64,000 nucleotides of DNA, taken from Fabrea salina (lineage: Eukaryota; Ciliophora; Heterotrichea; Heterotrichida; Fabreidae). The translations under genes and the position numbers were made by a program. Shown piece after piece: positions 14,105 to 64,000 of this stretch. The number at the start of each line of letters is the position of its first letter. Position 1 is the stretch's first letter. The stretch spans positions 221,653 through 285,652 of the forward strand of contig JALIHJ010000025.1 of NCBI GenBank assembly GCA_022984795.1. Direction: 5' to 3'. The notes under the pieces are model-generated. The model ran no database searches, was not told where the DNA came from, and saw only the letters and a list, made by a program, of their open reading frames with translations.

Positions 14105-15175
14105 CTAAAATAAGTCTAGAAGGTCTTGGAAGTCTTGCTTTGTTTCTTCTTTCGACTCTTGAGCTAAGTTTGACTTTACAGAAGGCCCTGGAGTTTGTTG
14201 AGTAGGGTTGGACTTTACAGGTTCGGAGGAAATCTGTCCCCAGTCCAAGTCCATCAAAGGGTTGCTTTGAGGGCCAAAGTCCAAAAGCTCAGGTGCCTGG
14301 GAAGGTGCTTGGGAAGGTTCTTGTAGGGGTGCTTGTAAAAGTTCTTCTAAAGGGGGTTCTTGTGGTGCTTGTGAAGCTGCTTGGAAAGGATTTGGCTTCT
14401 GGCCTCTTTTCAGTTGCTGGTGCCTTTCAAGGGTAGTTTGGATCTGGTCTTTGTTAGTTATGCAGATACTTAGTAATTCCTCATCTTCCAGACTAGGAAT
14501 TAACTTCAGTAGTTTGGACTCCATGGCTTTGAGAGTTCCTATAAGTTCTAGAAGGGTTTCATTGTTAGCTTCGGAGGGACTAGAAGCGTCAATTATGTCA
14601 TTAGTAAGTTGTATGTTTTCTGTAACTACAGACAAGTCCTTTTTGAGTTTTTGCTTCCTGGTTTCAGGCAAGGTTTTTCCACTTGTTCTTTGAGGTTTTG
14701 GAGTTCCTTGGGGTTTGTGGAGTTGCTGGGGTTTCTGAGGTTGCTTGGGTTGCTGACTAGAATACCCCATTTCTTCTAGATTTTCATGGAGTTCCCTGAA
14801 TCCAGGCAGTATGTCATAGCTATCGCTAAACCTAGTTGCCCACTCGTTGACCATTTCGACGAGTTTAGCTTTTAGTTGAGAGTCGGTGTCTTTGCCTTTT
14901 ATGAGGTTTTCTAAAGTGCTTGTGAAGTACCGAGAAGAAACCTGGGTGTGGAAAGGCAAGTGGCAGTTGTTCATGCAGAAGTCAAGTAAGTTTGCTGTTA
15001 GGATTTGGATTTTAGGATTGCGGGAAATGATTCTTTTTTTAAAGTGCTTAATGGCTTCTTTGGGCGCGTCAGGCTTGGAGTTGATTAAGTCCGAAGCTGT
15101 TACGTTAAGTTGGAGGTCTGGCCGGATAAGTGTGTCAGAAGTGGCTTTTTCTATTGCAGTTTGAATAGACTTCAT
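14105..15175 (-). CDS. VHS-GAT clathrin adaptor (TOM1/GGA-like)
   Basis: 356 aa. The N-terminal about 140 residues are a VHS domain (IQTAIEKATSDTL ... FKKRIISRNPKIQILTANLLDFCM ... LVEMVNEWATRF). A helical GAT-like segment (about 180-265) would bind Arf or ubiquitin. The Gln/Pro-rich tail holds clathrin-box-like motifs: LLDFG, LMDLD and the terminal LLDLF. It is probably a Golgi or endosomal sorting adaptor acting on ubiquitinated cargo. No gamma-adaptin ear is present, so it is nearer to TOM1 than to GGA. The start codon lies 15 bases beyond the last D box of the snoRNA cluster, on the same strand, so the two may share a transcript or the promoter may lie in the snoRNA region. Confidence 0.85.
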   Translation of the reverse strand: MKSIQTAIEKATSDTLIRPDLQLNVTASDLINSKPDAPKEAIKHFKKRIISRNPKIQILTANLLDFCMNNCHLPFHTQVSSRYFTSTLENLIKGKDTDSQLKAKLVEMVNEWATRFSDSYDILPGFRELHENLEEMGYSSQQPKQPQKPQQLHKPQGTPKPQRTSGKTLPETRKQKLKKDLSVVTENIQLTNDIIDASSPSEANNETLLELIGTLKAMESKLLKLIPSLEDEELLSICITNKDQIQTTLERHQQLKRGQKPNPFQAASQAPQEPPLEELLQAPLQEPSQAPSQAPELLDFGPQSNPLMDLDWGQISSEPVKSNPTQQTPGPSVKSNLAQESKEETKQDFQDLLDLF

Positions 15176-15186
15176 TTTATTAGTTA

Positions 15187-15249
15187 ATTATCAGAGACTT
15201 AGTGGAATCATAACTCATTTTAGAGGTGTCATAAGACTCATCACTTTAG
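15187..15249 (-). ncRNA. Box C/D snoRNA candidate a (fifth of cluster)
   Basis: On the minus strand, box C GTGATGA (15244-15238) and box D CTGA (15194-15191) span 54 nt end to end. It shares the inner block GACACCTCTAA...TGAGTT with candidate b but differs before box D, so the two look like paralogues with different D guides. I did not recognise an rRNA target for either guide. Confidence 0.62.
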
Positions 15250-15254
15250 TGTAA

Positions 15255-15315
15255 ATGTTCAGCTAAAAGTAAAAATCACAACTCATTAGAGGTGTCAAAA
15301 GACTCATCAAAGTAA
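15255..15315 (-). ncRNA. Box C/D snoRNA candidate b (fourth of cluster)
   Basis: Box C is TTGATGA (15310-15304), one base off the usual RTGATGA, and box D is CTGA (15262-15259), 52 nt end to end. A GTGATTT word may be C'. The D box is followed 14 nt later by box C of candidate a. Shared D'-side sequence with a suggests duplication. No target recognised. Confidence 0.58.
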
Positions 15316-15320
15316 ACTAG

Positions 15321-15378
15321 TGGATCAGAAGTGTCTATCACCAGGATTCAGTCTGGGGCGACATAATCATCACGCTAT
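15321..15378 (-). ncRNA. Box C/D snoRNA candidate c (third of cluster)
   Basis: Box C is GTGATGA (15373-15367), D' CTGA (15351-15348), C' GTGATAG, and D CTGA (15328-15325): all four boxes in order within 49 nt. The guide before D' (TCGCCCCAG) can pair, with one G-U, to the conserved large-subunit rRNA segment CTGGGGCGG as I remember it. That match is short and should be treated as tentative. Confidence 0.65.
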
Positions 15379-15383
15379 GAAAG

Positions 15384-15449
15384 TAAGTCAGATAGGAGCG
15401 AAAGTTTGTTATCACTTTTCAAAGTGAACTATGTGACTCATCACGACAG
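15384..15449 (-). ncRNA. SNORD80/snR60-like box C/D snoRNA (second of cluster)
   Basis: Box C is GTGATGA (15444-15438) and box D CTGA (15391-15388), 57 nt end to end. The D guide CTTTCGCTCCTAT pairs 13 nt with conserved 25S/28S rRNA ATAGGGGCGAAAG (one G-U) and is, as I recall, identical to the guide of human SNORD80. The inner guide ACATAGTTCAC pairs with 28S GTGAACTATG, the other SNORD80/snR60 target. Two independent guides matching one known snoRNA make this a strong call. Predicted products are 2'-O-methyl G (yeast 25S G908 equivalent) and 2'-O-methyl A (A817 equivalent). Confidence 0.82.
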
Positions 15450-15454
15450 ATATA

Positions 15455-15515
15455 AAACTCAGCATTGCAGAACTCCATCAATGCTCAGAGCCCAGTGCGG
15501 TTTTCATCATATAAT
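15455..15515 (-). ncRNA. Box C/D snoRNA guiding 5.8S rRNA Gm75 (SNORD96-like; first of cluster)
   Basis: The boxes are C ATGATGA (15510-15504), D' CTGA (15488-15485), C' TGATGG and D CTGA (15462-15459), a complete set in 52 nt. The D guide GAGTTCTGCAAT is complementary to ATTGCAGAACTC; AATTGCAG is universal in 5.8S rRNA. By the box D plus 5 rule the methylated base is G75 in human numbering, the known SNORD96 site. The D' guide GCACTGGGC matches nine bases of the conserved 28S stretch CTGCCCAGTGC. A TATAA-like A/T tract lies just upstream, so the cluster may have its own start or be cut from an eL30 read-through transcript. Confidence 0.8.
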
Positions 15516-15555
15516 TATTATAAATTCTCTGCCATACTTTAGCCAAATGTGTTAG

Positions 15556-15888
15556 TTAAGAAGATGCGGTGGCAGTGAGGATGTCAGAGTCACCTACGTC
15601 AGTGATTGCGAGGGTAGAAACGGGGTGCATTTTTCTGCAAGCTCTACCTAACTCCATGTTGTTGCCTCCGTAGTGCACCACTTCAACTTTGCCGAGCATC
15701 GAGTAGTATTCGATTTCACTCTTCCTAATTGGGGGGCAGTTGTTTGAGATGAAGATCATTTTGGCTTTTCCTTGTCTGACGCTCTTAAGTGTGCTTTTTT
15801 GACCTAACTGTACGCGTCCACTCTTGATAACTAAAGCTAACTTGGAGTTTAGTGTTTCTCCTCCCTTCTTCTTTGCTTTCTTCACCAT
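15556..15888 (-). CDS. RPL30: 60S ribosomal protein eL30
   Basis: 110 aa, standard length. The L7Ae/L30e fold is clear: [17 protein letters not shown], then [20 protein letters not shown], then [17 protein letters not shown]. It is a cytosolic large-subunit protein that binds kink-turn RNA. The first Met gives the usual lysine-rich N terminus. It begins 91 bp from the divergent coiled-coil gene, and the snoRNA cluster lies 40 bp downstream on the same strand. Ribosomal-protein genes often host or neighbour snoRNAs, which supports co-expression here. Confidence 0.96.
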
Positions 15889-31491: not shown

Positions 31492-32952
31492 ATGATAAAG
31501 AGTTTAGGCAGAAGGTGGGCATCTGTCTCAAGCTGGGTTTACGGGAACTCAGACGAGTTAGAAATCACAGCAAGTGTATTTTTGAGCCAAAAGCCTCCCC
31601 CAGCTACTACTTTGGTGGTGAACGGGTCCGTGGGTTCGGGGAAGTCCTTTTCATTGGACCAGGCCATGAACTACACGGGCAAAAACAAATTGCTTGACCC
31701 TGATATAGTTTTTTCTTTGGGTTTGAAAAACCTGCTCACAGTGGAGAACATTACTAGCATGGCCTTTATTGACACGATTAACAGAGGAGTAGGCAGTGTG
31801 ATAGCGGGCTTTGAAAAAAAGGGCTTAGACAGGTCTGTGAAGGTAAACTTCAGAGAACAACTAGACACAAAAGCCAGAAAACTCTTTTTCTTGAGAAAGA
31901 CTCTGGACGACATGATTGCAGAAGAAAACCCAGAAGTGAAAAGTGGGTACAAAGAAGAAACCCAAAAAATAGTCAGAATTATCAACGAAAAGATTAAAAA
32001 CTACCCCAAAGTAGTTAAACTGAACACCTTTGACTACGACGGCCTCAAACATATTATTGACAGACTTCCTCTGGCAGACGCCTTTGAAGTCCTGGGACTT
32101 AGTTACTTGGTTTCAGGAGTGGAGGAAGAATTTGGAGAACTTACCTCTGCACTGCAAGTCGCAACTTTGCAGCACTTTGGACAGATTTGTCAGGAAGACA
32201 ATCACGCTTACCCTGTTCTTAGAATTGACGACACTGAGTTATTTTACCAAGATCCCTCTCTCATGAGTTATTTCAAAAACTTAGTTAAAAACCTAAGCAC
32301 TAGCCACAGTTTCTACAGCATTTTAGAAGGTTCAGGGAACTTCTCAGAGGTCCTTCGACTCATGCTCCAAAATCCAGAAAGGTTCCAGATTTTCTGTGTT
32401 AAGGACTACCCTATTGACTCAGTGGAGAGTTTGCTTAACTCAATGGGAATAGAAATGACTCCTGAAGAGTTTAAAGAAATCTACAGCTTAATAGGAGGCA
32501 GCTCGGCACTAGTTTTCAACGCAGCCAACGCTTTGAGTCCAGGAGGGATTTCTGCATCCCAGTTCATCAAGCAACTTAAGTCAAACGTACTTAGAGAAGT
32601 CAACCAAAAACTAGCTAGTACTAAAACTGAAAACCAAGACGAAAAAACCTGGCAAGAAAAGTTCATGGGAATAGACCAACTAAAACTAAGGGCTTCCCTG
32701 TACATAATGAGCAACTTGATGAATCAACCCCTTGAAATAGAACCTCAAGAGTTTTCCGAGAACTACATGATGCAGCAGTTGTGCTTGATGAAACTGCTTT
32801 ACTACGACGGAAAACACCTGGACTTCGATAAGCCAGTTGTCAAGCACATTCTTCCGTACACTCAGTTTTGGAACATCACTAAAGGCTACCTCAACAACTA
32901 CAAAAACTCTTTTGCTTATAATAAAATTTTAAGTATTAACGACGAGATTTAA
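31492..32952 (+). CDS. P-loop NTPase, probably mitochondrial, function unknown
   Basis: 486 aa. Walker A is clear at about 43-52 (NGSVGSGKSF). A possible Walker B-like strand (VLRIDDTELF) lies near 243-252. The N terminus MIKSLGRRWASVSSW looks like a mitochondrial presequence. The overall pattern resembles the STAND/AAA-type ATPase proteins common in ciliates, and the telomere-proximal gene at 60264 has a similar outline without close sequence identity. Partners are unknown. Its last 17 coding bases overlap the coding end of the convergent transposase-like gene. Confidence 0.6.
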   Translation: MIKSLGRRWASVSSWVYGNSDELEITASVFLSQKPPPATTLVVNGSVGSGKSFSLDQAMNYTGKNKLLDPDIVFSLGLKNLLTVENITSMAFIDTINRGVGSVIAGFEKKGLDRSVKVNFREQLDTKARKLFFLRKTLDDMIAEENPEVKSGYKEETQKIVRIINEKIKNYPKVVKLNTFDYDGLKHIIDRLPLADAFEVLGLSYLVSGVEEEFGELTSALQVATLQHFGQICQEDNHAYPVLRIDDTELFYQDPSLMSYFKNLVKNLSTSHSFYSILEGSGNFSEVLRLMLQNPERFQIFCVKDYPIDSVESLLNSMGIEMTPEEFKEIYSLIGGSSALVFNAANALSPGGISASQFIKQLKSNVLREVNQKLASTKTENQDEKTWQEKFMGIDQLKLRASLYIMSNLMNQPLEIEPQEFSENYMMQQLCLMKLLYYDGKHLDFDKPVVKHILPYTQFWNITKGYLNNYKNSFAYNKILSINDEI

Positions 32953-34105
32953 AACTGCTTGCCACTAAACTGACTAAGGCTTTAAACACTTCAGCTGTTT
33001 GTAAGAGTTTACTTCGGTCACTGTACTTCTTCACCCACCTCCTCCACTGCCACTCCATCAAGTGCTCTTGTAAGTAAAGCGCTTTTCTGTTTCTTTTGCG
33101 TATTTCGTACTTAGCCCACAACCAAGTTGTTTTAACGTTGTTGGTGTGGATTAGTTTGTCTTCTGGGTCAGCTACTCCTCTTTCTTCGTCGTAGGTGTAG
33201 TGGGGGTACCCTAAGTTCTCGAGTCGGCCAAAAGCCCCCCAGCGTTTAGTGATGCAGGTTGTTCCTATTTCGCACTGTTTCTGGATAACAGAGTTAATAT
33301 ATTCAGGGGACTTTTTAGGAATCACTTCTAAGTAAACCAGTTTAGTTTCCCTTTCAAACATCACTAACACCCACTTAGGAGGCCTCTTTCCCTTGCCTAT
33401 TTCAATCTTCCTTTTAATGAAGTTGTTAACTTCTATTTCAACTACTCCTGAAAACTTAGGTAGTTTGGACCAGTAGTCCTTACTTACCAACTGCCTCATT
33501 TTCCTTGAAATGTAGGAAACGCTTTTTTGAGTGGAATCAACCATGTTGGCTATTTCAGAGTCCTTCAGTTCCAAAACCCACAAAAACAAAAAAGTCACTA
33601 TTTTCTGCGGGGGCATCTGCAGTCCGTGCCAAAAAGTGTCTTGTTTCACGCTACTCTGCACTCTGCACTTTGTACACACAAACAAGTACCCTGTGTACCC
33701 GTGATTCTCCAAGCTCATAGCTTGAAAGCACTTGTAGCACTCCCGACCGCTAGGCAACAAGTCTGACTTCAGTAAAAAGCTCAATGACAACTCTGAGTCT
33801 TTACAAATTCGGAAAAAGTTGTTAGGAAGTTCCAATTGGTGTAGGTAGTCCCTTAAACTCAAACTGGGGTCTCTGAATCTTGCTAGTTTGCTTTCTTCAG
33901 CTACGGACTCAAGTCTTTTTTCAAGCAGCTTTACTTGACCACTTAAGTGACTCAGCTTCAACTTAGAAGAACGCATTTCCCCTAGTAAAAGTTTGTTTTG
34001 GGTCCTCAAAGCCTTAGCGCTGCACAGCATTCGGAAGCACTCTCTGCACTTCTGGAATGAGTCTCCGTGTTCTTGGCAGTAAAAGTCCTTAATCGTTTTC
34101 TCCAT
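32936..34105 (-). CDS. Domesticated IS1595/Merlin (ISXO2-like) transposase, catalytic residues lost
   Basis: 389 aa. A C-x2-C ... C-x2-C zinc ribbon (Cys123, 126, 144, 147) is followed by the ISXO2-like transposase fold: FSGVVEIEVNNF, WVLVMFERETKLVYLEVI, GTTCITKRWGAFGRLENLGY and HTNNVKTTWLWAKYEIRKR. In active members the DDE triad sits in VEID, SD-x-W and TN-x-IE. Here they read VEIE (Glu225), TK-x-W (Lys287) and TNNVK (Lys325). All three positions are changed, so it should not cut DNA. The frame is intact and sits between housekeeping genes with no inverted repeats seen, which fits a domesticated protein. An N-terminal Cys/His cluster (residues 10-28) and a coiled coil precede it. Confidence 0.85.
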   Translation of the reverse strand: MEKTIKDFYCQEHGDSFQKCRECFRMLCSAKALRTQNKLLLGEMRSSKLKLSHLSGQVKLLEKRLESVAEESKLARFRDPSLSLRDYLHQLELPNNFFRICKDSELSLSFLLKSDLLPSGRECYKCFQAMSLENHGYTGYLFVCTKCRVQSSVKQDTFWHGLQMPPQKIVTFLFLWVLELKDSEIANMVDSTQKSVSYISRKMRQLVSKDYWSKLPKFSGVVEIEVNNFIKRKIEIGKGKRPPKWVLVMFERETKLVYLEVIPKKSPEYINSVIQKQCEIGTTCITKRWGAFGRLENLGYPHYTYDEERGVADPEDKLIHTNNVKTTWLWAKYEIRKRNRKALYLQEHLMEWQWRRWVKKYSDRSKLLQTAEVFKALVSLVASSFKSRR

Positions 34106-49861: not shown

Positions 49862-51268
49862 TTACTTGCCTTTCTTCCTCAGGAGCTTCTGTATTTCCTG
49901 TTTGGACAGTCCCTTGGTTTCTATCATGTCCACTGAAAAGTACACAAGTGCCAAGAAACAAATTCCTGTGTACACCCAAAGCACAACGGACAGTCCCAAC
50001 AACTCCTTGAGAAGCGGAAAAGTAAACACTACTGTTGTGAAGAAAAGTCTACTGAAGGCAACACATATACTCATTGCCCTAGGAGTCAGTATTTCTCCTG
50101 AGTAAAGCCAACAAATCGGACCTATTGAAGTTCCGTAAAACAAGATGTAAAGAAGAATGAAAAGCACTGGAAAAAGAATGTTCCAGTCCTCCAGAGGCTC
50201 TGCAAAAAAACCTGTAAACAAAAGACAAACTGACATTCCCACACACCCCACAATCAGCAAAGCTCTTCTGCCAAGTTTATCAACGAAAGAACTCACAAAC
50301 AAACTAGGAAGCATAAGAACCACCCCTGAAACCAAGGTGTAAACTCTTGACATAAAGGTCCCTCCTCCTAAATGCCCGAAAATGCTTGTGGAAAAAGTAA
50401 GTATTGCGTTAATTCCTGAAAATTGCTGCAAAAAGTAAACTGCATAGCCTAGTCTCATAAGCCTGTTTGTGTTCTGTTTACAAAGAAGCAAGTCCAAGTA
50501 AGAGGGGTTGTATTCATACGAACTATTCAGTTCAGAGTCTTTTGTGCTTTTCATTTTCTGGAGTTTTTCTGAAGCACTTTCTTCTGTGTAAACTTGCTTC
50601 AAACTCTCAAGTGCACTTTCTGAAGAGCTTTTATTCAGATACCACGTTGGAGTCTCCAACTTGTGAACACACTTAAACACCAAAAACTGGAAGAGTGCAA
50701 TAAAAATCTGGAGCCCAAACATAACCATCCACCAGTAAGTAAGTGGATCTGATTTGTAGTTTCCAGTAGGCAAAACCAAAGCAGAGGCATACCCCACTGA
50801 AATTCCAGAAGTTGCTTGGATTTGCACTAGAGTGCCCATCCTTCCGCTCATTTCAGTGGGGGATGTTTCGTTGATATAAAGTGGAACTATGGTGGCATAA
50901 ATGCCCACACTGAAGCCACTGATGAACCTTCCTATTCCAAAGGTAATTGTAAAGGGGATGATTGTAACTACTGCTCCAAGCAGAGTAATCAGATTAGAAA
51001 CCATCAGTATTTTCCTCCTTCCAATCCTACTAGAAACTGATCCCGCAAATATTGCGGAAAACATTGCTCCTAAAGGCATAATTCCTGTCATCACTGCATC
51101 CAGAATGTATTTGTCGTCTTCCCAATCGAAGATTGTAGCTAGCACGTCTAGAGTTGAATTGATTACTCCAATGTTGTAGCCAAGCATGAAAGATCCCAAA
51201 CTTGCTGTCAGGCACATTTTCCATACCTTCTTAGAATTATATGAAATAACTAGATTCTCACTTGACAT
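49862..51268 (-). CDS. MFS sugar transporter (GLUT-like), copy 1
   Basis: 468 aa, twelve predicted membrane spans. Sugar-porter signatures include SSRIGRRK, RFISGFSVGIYATIVPLYIN, ETSPTEMSGRMGTLVQ, QQFSGINAILTFSTSIFG, DKLGRRALLIVG and SGEILTPRAMS. It probably moves hexose by facilitated diffusion or proton symport. The tail has ETKGLSKQEIQKLL as in the neighbour copy. It is a head-to-head paralogue of the gene at 51463, with 194 bp between the start codons. Confidence 0.95.
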   Translation of the reverse strand: MSSENLVISYNSKKVWKMCLTASLGSFMLGYNIGVINSTLDVLATIFDWEDDKYILDAVMTGIMPLGAMFSAIFAGSVSSRIGRRKILMVSNLITLLGAVVTIIPFTITFGIGRFISGFSVGIYATIVPLYINETSPTEMSGRMGTLVQIQATSGISVGYASALVLPTGNYKSDPLTYWWMVMFGLQIFIALFQFLVFKCVHKLETPTWYLNKSSSESALESLKQVYTEESASEKLQKMKSTKDSELNSSYEYNPSYLDLLLCKQNTNRLMRLGYAVYFLQQFSGINAILTFSTSIFGHLGGGTFMSRVYTLVSGVVLMLPSLFVSSFVDKLGRRALLIVGCVGMSVCLLFTGFFAEPLEDWNILFPVLFILLYILFYGTSIGPICWLYSGEILTPRAMSICVAFSRLFFTTVVFTFPLLKELLGLSVVLWVYTGICFLALVYFSVDMIETKGLSKQEIQKLLRKKGK

Positions 51269-51462: not shown

Positions 51463-52869
51463 ATGTCAAGTAGTCACTTAATTACAACCTACAGTTCAAC
51501 CAAAGTATGGAGGGTGTGCTTATTTGCAAGTTTAGGTAGCTTTGTGTTTGGGTACAACGTTGGCGTGGTCAACTCAACGCTAGATGTAGTGGCATCAGTT
51601 TTTAATTGGGGAGACTACAAAAGCATTTTAACTGCAATTATGGCAGGATCAATGCCATTCGGTGCGATGGTTTCTTCGGTGTTCTCAGGGAACCTTTCCA
51701 ACAAGATAGGAACCAGAGGAGCTTTGATGGTTTCTAATCTGATTACTCTGCTTGGAGCAGTAGTTACGGTTATTCCCTTTACAATTACCTTTGGAATAGG
51801 AAGGTTCATCAGTGGCTTGAGTGTGGGCATTTACGCTACTCTGGTTCCACTCTATATCAACGAAACAGCTCCCACTGAAATGAGCGGGAAATTAGGTACT
51901 CTGGTGCAAATCCAAATAACAACAGGAATTCTGTTGGCTTACGTCTTTGCCCTAGTTCTGCCTACTGGAGACTACACTTCCAACTCCCTCACTAACTGGT
52001 GGATGGCTATGTTTGGGTTCCAGGCAGTTTTCTCGATGGCTCAGTTTTTGTTGTTCTTGTGTGTTTACAAACTAGAAACTCCAGTGTGGCTTTGGACCAG
52101 AAACCTTCGAGAAAGTGCACTTGAGAGCTTGAAACAAGTGTATTCAGAAGAAGGTGCCCAAGAAGTCCTAGACAGGATGGACTCTGCAGTTGACCGAAGT
52201 TCAATTTGTTCCCTAGATAAAGGAGTAGACCCCTCTTATTCAGAACTGCTCCTTTGCAGGCAGGGAACTAGTAAACTCATGCGTCTGGGCTACTTAAACA
52301 ACTTCTTCCAGCAGTTCTCGGGAATCAATGCCATTCTGACTTTCTCTACGAGCATTTTTGGGGACCTAGGTGGAGGAGTGTTTATGTCGAGGGTTTACAC
52401 TGTAGTTGTAGGAGCTGTAAACACCCTCCCCACTATAGTTGTGAGTTCTTTAGTTGACAAATTCGGCAGAAAAGTTCTGTTAGTTTTGGGCTTTGTAGGA
52501 ATGGCTGTATGCCAGCTGTTTTCGGGGTTCTTTGCCGGACTCCTATCAGGTTCTAGCATTGTGTTTCCCGTGCTTTGCATCTTGCTCTACATAGTGTTTT
52601 TCGCAACTTCAACAGGCCCCATTTGTTGGCTGTATTGCGGAGAGATACTCACTCCCAAAGCCATGAGTATTTGCACTGCTTTCAACTGGTTCTGTAATGC
52701 CTTTGCACTGTTTACTTTTCCGCCTCTCAAAGAGTTTTTGGGAATTGCCTTAGTGTTTTGGATTTACACTGCAGCCTGTGTGGTTGGGCTTTTGTACTTT
52801 GCCCTTGACATGCTCGAAACCAAGGGCCTCTCTAAGCAAGAAATTCAAAGATTGCTTACAAAAGGTTAG
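51463..52869 (+). CDS. MFS sugar transporter (GLUT-like), copy 2
   Basis: 468 aa, the same length as the inverted neighbour and alike along its full length. Identical DNA blocks occur (for example TCTGATTACTCTGCTTGGAG near 51736). Signatures: RFISGLSVGIYATLVPLYIN, QQFSGINAILTFSTSIFG, DKFGRKVLLVLG and GEILTPKAMS. The central loop differs most between the copies (here VDRSSICSLDKGVDPSYSEL), which is where regulation or trafficking signals usually lie. Confidence 0.95.
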   Translation: MSSSHLITTYSSTKVWRVCLFASLGSFVFGYNVGVVNSTLDVVASVFNWGDYKSILTAIMAGSMPFGAMVSSVFSGNLSNKIGTRGALMVSNLITLLGAVVTVIPFTITFGIGRFISGLSVGIYATLVPLYINETAPTEMSGKLGTLVQIQITTGILLAYVFALVLPTGDYTSNSLTNWWMAMFGFQAVFSMAQFLLFLCVYKLETPVWLWTRNLRESALESLKQVYSEEGAQEVLDRMDSAVDRSSICSLDKGVDPSYSELLLCRQGTSKLMRLGYLNNFFQQFSGINAILTFSTSIFGDLGGGVFMSRVYTVVVGAVNTLPTIVVSSLVDKFGRKVLLVLGFVGMAVCQLFSGFFAGLLSGSSIVFPVLCILLYIVFFATSTGPICWLYCGEILTPKAMSICTAFNWFCNAFALFTFPPLKEFLGIALVFWIYTAACVVGLLYFALDMLETKGLSKQEIQRLLTKG

Positions 52870-63636: not shown

Positions 63637-64000
63637 GGGGTGTTAGGGTGTTAGGGTGTTGGGGTGTTAGGGTGTTAGGGTGTTAGGGTGTTAGGGTGTT
63701 AGGGTGTTAGGGTGTTAGGGTGTTAGGGTGTTAGGGTGTTAGGGTGTTAGGGTGTTAGGGTGTTAGGGGTGTTAGGGTGTTAGGGTGTTAGGGTGTTAGG
63801 GTGTTAGGGTGTTAGGGTGTTAGGGTGTTAGGGTGTTAGGGTGTTGGGGTGTTAGGGTGTTAGGGTGTTAGGGTGTTAGGGTGTTAGAGGGTGTTAGGGT
63901 GTTAGGGTGTTAGGGTGTTAGGGTGTTAGGGTGTTAGGGTGTTAGGGTGTTAGGGTGTTAGGGTGTTAGGGTGTTAGGGTGTTAGGGTGTTAGGGTGTTA
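63637..64000 (+). repeat. Telomere, (TGTTAGGG)n, right chromosome end
   Basis: About 45 tandem copies of TGTTAGGG with the G-rich strand running 5' to 3' toward the end, the right orientation for a right-hand telomere. Variants are TGTTGGGG (63657 and 63842), one unit with an extra G (about 63761-63769) and one 10-base unit with GAGGG (63882-63891). The array runs off the window. The C-strand unit CCCTAACA is that of heterotrich ciliates. Confidence 0.98.

Follow-up and report, generated by a model that had tools for sequence, protein, structure and literature searches.

The window analysed here, a 64,000-nt stretch of a Fabrea salina contig, contains a 380-nt gap (15176-15555) between the stop codon of an eL30 gene and the ATG of a gene for a VHS-GAT protein. 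Within this gap, positions 15191-15510 of the minus strand hold five NTGATGA...CTGA units in tandem, with the C boxes counted as 7 nt; the cluster ends with the D box of unit 5 at position 15191. From upstream to downstream, the locus comprises the following features:

15556-15888, minus strand: eL30 gene (Pfam Ribosomal_L7Ae), upstream of the cluster; its stop lies 45 nt before C box 1
15518-15523, minus strand: TTATAA element, 13 nt before C box 1; the sole TATAA on the minus strand of 15176-15555
15459-15510, minus strand: putative snoRNA, unit 1; C box 15510-15504, D' box CTGA 15488-15485, C' box TGATGGA 15480-15474, D box 15462-15459
15445-15458, minus strand: linker between units 1 and 2, 14 nt
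15388-15444, minus strand: putative snoRNA, unit 2; C box 15444-15438, D' box TTGA 15422-15419, D box 15391-15388
15374-15387, minus strand: linker between units 2 and 3, 14 nt
15325-15373, minus strand: putative snoRNA, unit 3; C box 15373-15367, D' box CTGA 15351-15348, C' box TGATAGA 15340-15334, D box 15328-15325
15311-15324, minus strand: linker between units 3 and 4, 14 nt
15259-15310, minus strand: putative snoRNA, unit 4; C box 15310-15304, D' box ATGA 15286-15283, D box 15262-15259
15245-15258, minus strand: linker between units 4 and 5, 14 nt
15191-15244, minus strand: putative snoRNA, unit 5; C box 15244-15238, D' box ATGA 15218-15215, D box 15194-15191
14105-15175, minus strand: gene for a VHS-GAT protein (VHS and GAT domains), downstream of the cluster, with 15 nt between D box 5 and its ATG

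The C-to-D extents of units 1 to 5 are 52, 57, 49, 52 and 54 nt, and each D box is separated from the next C box by 14 nt in all four linkers (counted to the 7-nt NTGATGA; the distance to TGATGA is 15). A preliminary description of this DNA had reported five C/D pairs with the same extents and an exact 14-nt spacing; the same boxes were relocated on the minus strand, and four of the four gaps agree. There is no freedom in the choice of D boxes, because units 1 to 4 use the last CTGA ahead of the next C box and unit 5 holds a single CTGA, leaving its D box without an alternative. The gap contains two more CTGA motifs, both internal, which serve units 1 and 3 as D' boxes. The C boxes follow the consensus RTGATGA in four of the five units (TTGATGA in unit 4), in line with the RUGAUGA/CUGA definition of box C/D snoRNAs. 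By eye, the C'/D' motifs are clear in units 1 and 3 and degenerate in unit 2, and the C' box is weak in units 4 and 5. Few pairs of a terminal stem are visible by eye next to the C and D boxes; weak terminal stems are common among known snoRNAs.

This box order and spacing are far beyond chance. The longest chain of C/D units (gaps of 5 to 40 nt) was determined in 300 first-order Markov sequences of 64 kb: it had no unit in 10 of them, one in 288 and two in 2, and three were never reached. The real minus strand has a chain of five, and a longest chain of one once the cluster is left out. The pattern CTGA-N15-TGATGA occurs five times in the window, four of them within the cluster, with 0.10 occurrences expected.

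The five units are very probably genuine box C/D snoRNAs, judging from their likeness to known families. At Rfam gathering thresholds, the window yields no matches. A permissive Rfam scan of the whole window returns 12 matches at E ≤ 5, every one of them to a box C/D model. Ten of these (three to sR models) fall on units 1 to 4, within 15235-15514 on the minus strand, and the other two (sR4 and sR3) lie elsewhere in the window. The best E-value at whole-window size is 0.14. The scores, compared with the gathering values, are 32.8 and 41 bits for RF00309, 23.9 and 40 for RF00089, 22.9 and 49 for RF00345, and 29.8 and 44 for RF01424; as none reaches gathering, the units are termed here counterparts of these RNAs rather than formal family members. 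Unit 5 has no Rfam match at E ≤ 5 in the whole-window scan and no snoR1 match of its own (its best match in a local scan is snoZ199, E 2.1), so its assignment depends on its likeness to unit 4.

In the Rfam alignments, the D guide and box of unit 2, CTTTCGCTCCTATCTGA, and its D' guide, CATAGTTCA, are identical to those of snR60/Z15. This unit also aligns with Tetrahymena TtnuCD13 over TTTCGCTCCTATCTGA, which is the D guide stretch minus its first base. Unit 2 differs from snR60 in its C-to-D extent of 57 nt, which falls short of the 98 positions of the snR60 model, and in a D' site that is off by one. Unit 3 carries ahead of its D' box the stretch CGCCCCAG, common to SNORD31, U31b, and GlsR4, and unit 4 contains TGACACCTCT and ATGAG, as in snoR1. 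Unit 1 contains GCACTGGGCTCTGAGCA, as in snoR118, in an alignment that then continues into unit 2, and has a weak match to SNORD74 (14.6 bits, E 2.4). In these stretches, unit 2 resembles snR60/U80 in both guides, unit 3 resembles SNORD31/U31, and unit 4 resembles plant SnoR1 (yeast snR48), and they may be the respective counterparts. The box C/D reading offered in the preliminary description is thereby backed by guide homology, both in the Rfam alignments and in the rDNA target matches given below.

Several other assignments of the gap were considered and rejected. The longest ORF that touches it has only 49 aa, which speaks against a protein-coding role. A polymerase III unit is disfavored by internal stretches of four or five consecutive T and by the lack of a T run after unit 5. 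Host exons, which intron-encoded units would have, are not seen around the snoRNAs. Introns of Blepharisma are mostly 15 and 16 bp (PMC9942806, cited, like the other papers below, for the part of its text that bears on the point), and introns of this type are too short for a snoRNA. The window shows no excess of 15-nt introns, with 612 GT-N11-AG matches versus 572-703 at lengths from 10 to 25, and no clear signal of introns came from other tests. The earlier view that the snoRNAs are not intron-encoded is plausible from the short introns of Blepharisma and the lack of host exons.

Guide targets were sought in eukaryotic rDNA contigs of other organisms (L001 to L007). Two contigs picked because they contain the sites, L002 and L006, were scored by the best uninterrupted pairing spanning position +5, and significance was expressed as the number of shuffled guides, of 300, that score as well. 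For the five guides of units 1 to 3 listed below, the highest-scoring pairing in L002/L006 coincides with the homologue of a site known to be methylated; position +5 of the guide lies on that site in the rDNA of these other eukaryotes, except that 2D' is off by one nucleotide:

Guide 1D' of unit 1: 28S rRNA at GCCCAGTGC, homologue of the site that we take to be yeast Cm2337; shuffles as good, 18/300
Guide 1D of unit 1: 5.8S rRNA at ATTGCAG, Gm79 in Arabidopsis and, presumably, Gm75 in human; shuffles as good, 10/300
Guide 2D' of unit 2: GGTGAACTATG, yeast Am817, one nt off by the +5 rule; shuffles as good, 21/300
Guide 2D of unit 2: ATAGGGGCGAAAG, yeast Gm908; shuffles as good, 0/300
Guide 3D' of unit 3: P loop of the large subunit at CTGGGGCGG, yeast Gm2619 and Arabidopsis G2620; shuffles as good, 2/300

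The target matches of guides 1D', 1D, and 2D' are individually weak, and a score that allows mismatches finds a better place elsewhere for 1D' in L006 and for 2D' in L002. For guides 3D, 4D, and 5D, no target in L002/L006 beats the shuffles (239, 150, and 27 of 300 as good, respectively). In what we assume to be the 5.8S sequences of the two species, the G predicted for guide 1D is number 79 in Arabidopsis and number 75 in human. The +5 rule puts the two predicted sites of unit 2 at a distance of 92 nt in five contigs (L002 to L006), versus 91 nt in yeast, which places its D' site one nucleotide beside the Am817 homologue. The D' box of this unit, TTGA, has no leading C, and in yeast a D' box of this kind can shift the methylated site by one (PMC5389607). 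The yeast methylation sites listed above and their guides are tabulated in PMC5199042. In Arabidopsis, U31 is assigned to G2620 and U80 to A826 and G917, and G79 of 5.8S rRNA has been mapped as a site (PMC8053127). Since the same source assigns snoR118 to C2198 and SnoR44 to C2338, the likeness of unit 1 to snoR118 is by itself no support for Cm2337. In a guide table for Neurospora, the human RNA given for the snR64 site is U74 (PMC2780460).

Contigs L002 to L006 are eukaryotic rDNA inside prokaryote assemblies, where they are probably contamination, and L001 and L007 are found in viral records. L001 opens with ~110 bases of eukaryotic 28S rRNA fused to other sequence and is probably a chimera made in assembly. 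With rDNA as the query, a plasmid search gave 46 records, in none of which 80% of the query was covered; coverage among the 20 records listed was 1-3%.

Judged by their sequences, units 4 and 5 are paralogues. They share the D' guide TGACACCTCTA, with two extra As in unit 5 before its D' box ATGA, and have different D guides. The preliminary description had noted a duplicate pair with different guides; the pair exists (units 4 and 5) and its D guides do differ, but the D' guide is the same in both and has moved by 2 nt. In yeast snR48 and plant SnoR1, which these units resemble, the D' guide serves two Gs, with one nucleotide between them, in helix 88 of 25S rRNA. SnoR1 is assigned to Arabidopsis 25S G2792, in a pairing that begins at guide position 4 (PMC8053127), and one guide of yeast snR48 directs methylation of both G2791 and G2793, which correspond to G2792 and G2794 of Arabidopsis (PMC8053127, PMC5389607). 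Guides 4D' and 5D' have no target in L002 or L006 (268 and 188 of 300 shuffles as good), contigs that appear to stop before this region, and the 3' part of 28S rRNA with the helix 88 target was not found in viral contigs or in the sources of L001 to L007 (seven genomes or records). On a 27-nt fragment that we take to be this part of 28S rRNA, position +5 of unit 5 falls on the same G as that of the Rfam snoR1 consensus, and position +5 of unit 4 falls on the G two nucleotides further. The fragment is consistent with the published start of the SnoR1-G2792 pairing at guide position 4.

The D' guide of unit 4 is thus predicted to direct methylation of the second G (yeast Gm2793) and that of unit 5 of the first G (yeast Gm2791), in the SnoR1 register. 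With registers 2 nt apart, the guide geometry leaves one G to each paralogue, and the two units seem to divide between them the two-site job of yeast snR48. The yeast RNA has dual specificity within one molecule (PMC5389607), whereas here there are two paralogues with two registers. Unit 5 might also guide both G2791 and G2793 alone, through two overlapping D' boxes of the kind proposed for yeast snR48 (PMC5389607): its D' motif reads AAAATGA, so that both sites would result from overlapping D' boxes of 4 nt and 6 nt, and in both units the D' box, ATGA, lacks the leading C, whose absence loosens site choice in yeast (PMC5389607). Unit 4 would then be a redundant or differently used copy. It has, however, kept a complete guide with an exact 2-nt shift, which would be unexpected for a decaying copy and makes this option rather unlikely. 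With the job divided as predicted, units 4 and 5 would be a natural experiment on the role of guide-to-D' box distance in selecting the methylated nucleotide.

The TTATAA element ahead of unit 1 belongs to a recurrent type. It is found no more than 30 nt upstream of 13 of the 33 start codons taken from the ORF list (11 of them at 8-17 nt, the other two at 27 and 30 nt). The corresponding frequency is 0.9% at random positions and 5.8% in shuffled upstream stretches. These 13 starts represent 11 distinct elements, as two divergent gene pairs share one each, of the 26 elements in 63.6 kb. As a palindrome, TTATAA has no direction of its own. In this genome it likely acts as a start or promoter signal; since a role in translation is impossible in a non-coding cluster, the copy at 15518-15523 is read as a transcription start or promoter signal, and is proposed to be common to all five units.

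The five snoRNAs probably form one transcription unit with a single precursor, which is favored by the presence of only one TTATAA in the gap, at its head. The claim of one precursor made earlier is, on this ground, probable. A separate start for each snoRNA has been inferred for Tetrahymena TtnuCD32 and TtnuCD33, whose upstream elements, one per gene, lie 98 and 118 bp ahead of the mature RNA (PMC6315972). Such an arrangement is very improbable here, as the 14-nt linkers leave room for start signals only inside the preceding snoRNA and linkers 1 to 4 contain no TATAA, although TTATA is present in linker 1. Ribosomal protein genes are frequent hosts of snoRNAs, and the eL30 gene lies on the same strand with its stop just 45 nt from C box 1, so the snoRNAs might be the 3' portion of an eL30 read-through transcript. 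This, too, is improbable, given that an element of the type that precedes 13 of 33 gene starts stands directly ahead of unit 1; moreover, among the 17 other gaps between tandem ORFs in the window, 8 do not exceed 30 nt, which makes 45 nt an ordinary full gap. At the other end, positions 15176-15190 leave 15 nt between D box 5 and the ATG of the VHS gene, whose start region must therefore overlap the last snoRNA or share its transcript. The VHS start has no TTATAA, like 20 of the 33 starts.

Taken as a whole, the locus is best read as a polycistronic cluster of five box C/D snoRNAs that guide 2'-O-methylation, with the transcript, processing, and targets outlined here; we put the probability of this reading at about 0.8. 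A single RNA polymerase II transcript would start at the TTATAA before unit 1, C/D proteins would bind each C/D motif, and each 14-nt linker would be cut and the ends then trimmed to those covered by protein. The mature RNAs, as predicted from guide pairing, would direct fibrillarin to rRNA of the large subunit and to 5.8S rRNA. The sites, numbered as in yeast, human, or Arabidopsis, would be Cm2337 and 5.8S Gm75/79 for unit 1, Am817 and Gm908 for unit 2, the P-loop Gm2619 for unit 3, Gm2793 for unit 4, and Gm2791 for unit 5.

The extents of the units vary from 49 to 57 nt and the linkers do not, which makes the linker, rather than a repeat period, the constant element. Mature snoRNAs end with a tail of ~5 nt and begin with a leader of ~5 nt. 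Most simply, 14 nt would then accommodate a five-nt tail, a five-nt leader, and a few more nucleotides, the closest packing that leaves a cut site. The preliminary description had suggested a measuring or structure-based cut; the structural variant finds no support, as the fold of the 380 nt has a z-score of 0.17 and 59 of 100 shuffled sequences reach an equal or better fold, and a structured precursor was rejected. RNase III enzymes of yeasts act on larger elements: Rnt1 of budding yeast cuts clusters at hairpins, and Pac1 of fission yeast needs stems of at least 20 bp (PMC12508059). Hairpins of either type are impossible within linkers as short as 14 nt. The same paper, in the part cited, describes the cutting of multi-snoRNA non-intronic precursors outside budding yeast as largely unknown. 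The constant linkers of the Fabrea cluster, too short for RNase III hairpins, narrow the options for this step.

Whether the equal gaps reflect a processing rule is an even question. Coincidence, or a general compactness of the genome, would explain them about as well: gaps between protein genes in the window are likewise often very short, no motif shared by the linkers is seen by eye, and four gaps in one cluster are all the cases. On the other side, the four gaps are equal despite extents of 49-57 nt, and the chance of such equality is 1 in 11 cubed (~0.0008) if gaps from 10 to 20 nt are assumed to be equally likely. A stricter version, in which the cluster follows a fixed plan with C/D particles 14 nt apart, one measured, hairpin-free cut in each linker, the VHS messenger as the last product, and snR48 replaced by two paralogues, is improbable.

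Polycistronic snoRNA clusters are known from other eukaryotes, such as the HID1 cluster of Arabidopsis (PMC8053127) and ten intergenic clusters in Ostreococcus tauri (PMC7671301). The Fabrea cluster is similar to those of plants, algae, and yeasts in having several guides per array, thought to be cut from one precursor. Its four linkers are all 14 nt and offer no space for Rnt1/Pac1 hairpins of the kind cut in yeasts. Among ciliates, the box C/D snoRNAs TtnuCD32 and TtnuCD33 of Tetrahymena are likewise close in the genome, but independent transcription has been inferred for them (PMC6315972), whereas the units described here are in tandem with 14-nt linkers. The RNAs are of known kinds and their guides are largely conserved, and the layout and the predicted split of the snR48 job are a new variation. 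In agreement with the earlier remark that no heterotrich cluster of this layout had been described, an open-access search, with most subscription papers outside its reach, found no paper on heterotrich snoRNAs, and the cluster may offer an early look at these RNAs.

A search of viral contigs for relatives of the cluster, defined by the unit 2 guide and the 14-nt gap, found none. The two-linker spacing pattern is present in at least 120 viral stretches. Many of the match lengths differ by 9 nt, and these stretches look like coding repeats.

Other parts of the window hold further features of note. At its right end, positions 63638-64000 contain a telomere array with 45 copies of GGGTGTTA, the reverse complement of a permutation of the Blepharisma telomere repeat CCCTAACA (PMC9942806). 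This repeat makes a heterotrich source likely, a label to which the intron test adds nothing. The 39 listed ORFs end in TAA (29), TAG (6), or TGA (4), and long ORFs (up to 2076 aa) contain no TGA. Blepharisma reads TGA as tryptophan; the same reading here would lengthen two of the four ORFs ending in TGA by no more than a few residues. An ORF at 32936-34105 on the minus strand contains an ISXO2-like (IS1595) transposase domain. Two divergent ORFs of 468 aa each, at 49862-51268 on the minus strand and 51463-52869 on the plus strand, are similar in their first 50 residues and probably represent a duplicate pair; the former matches the Pfam sugar transporter family.
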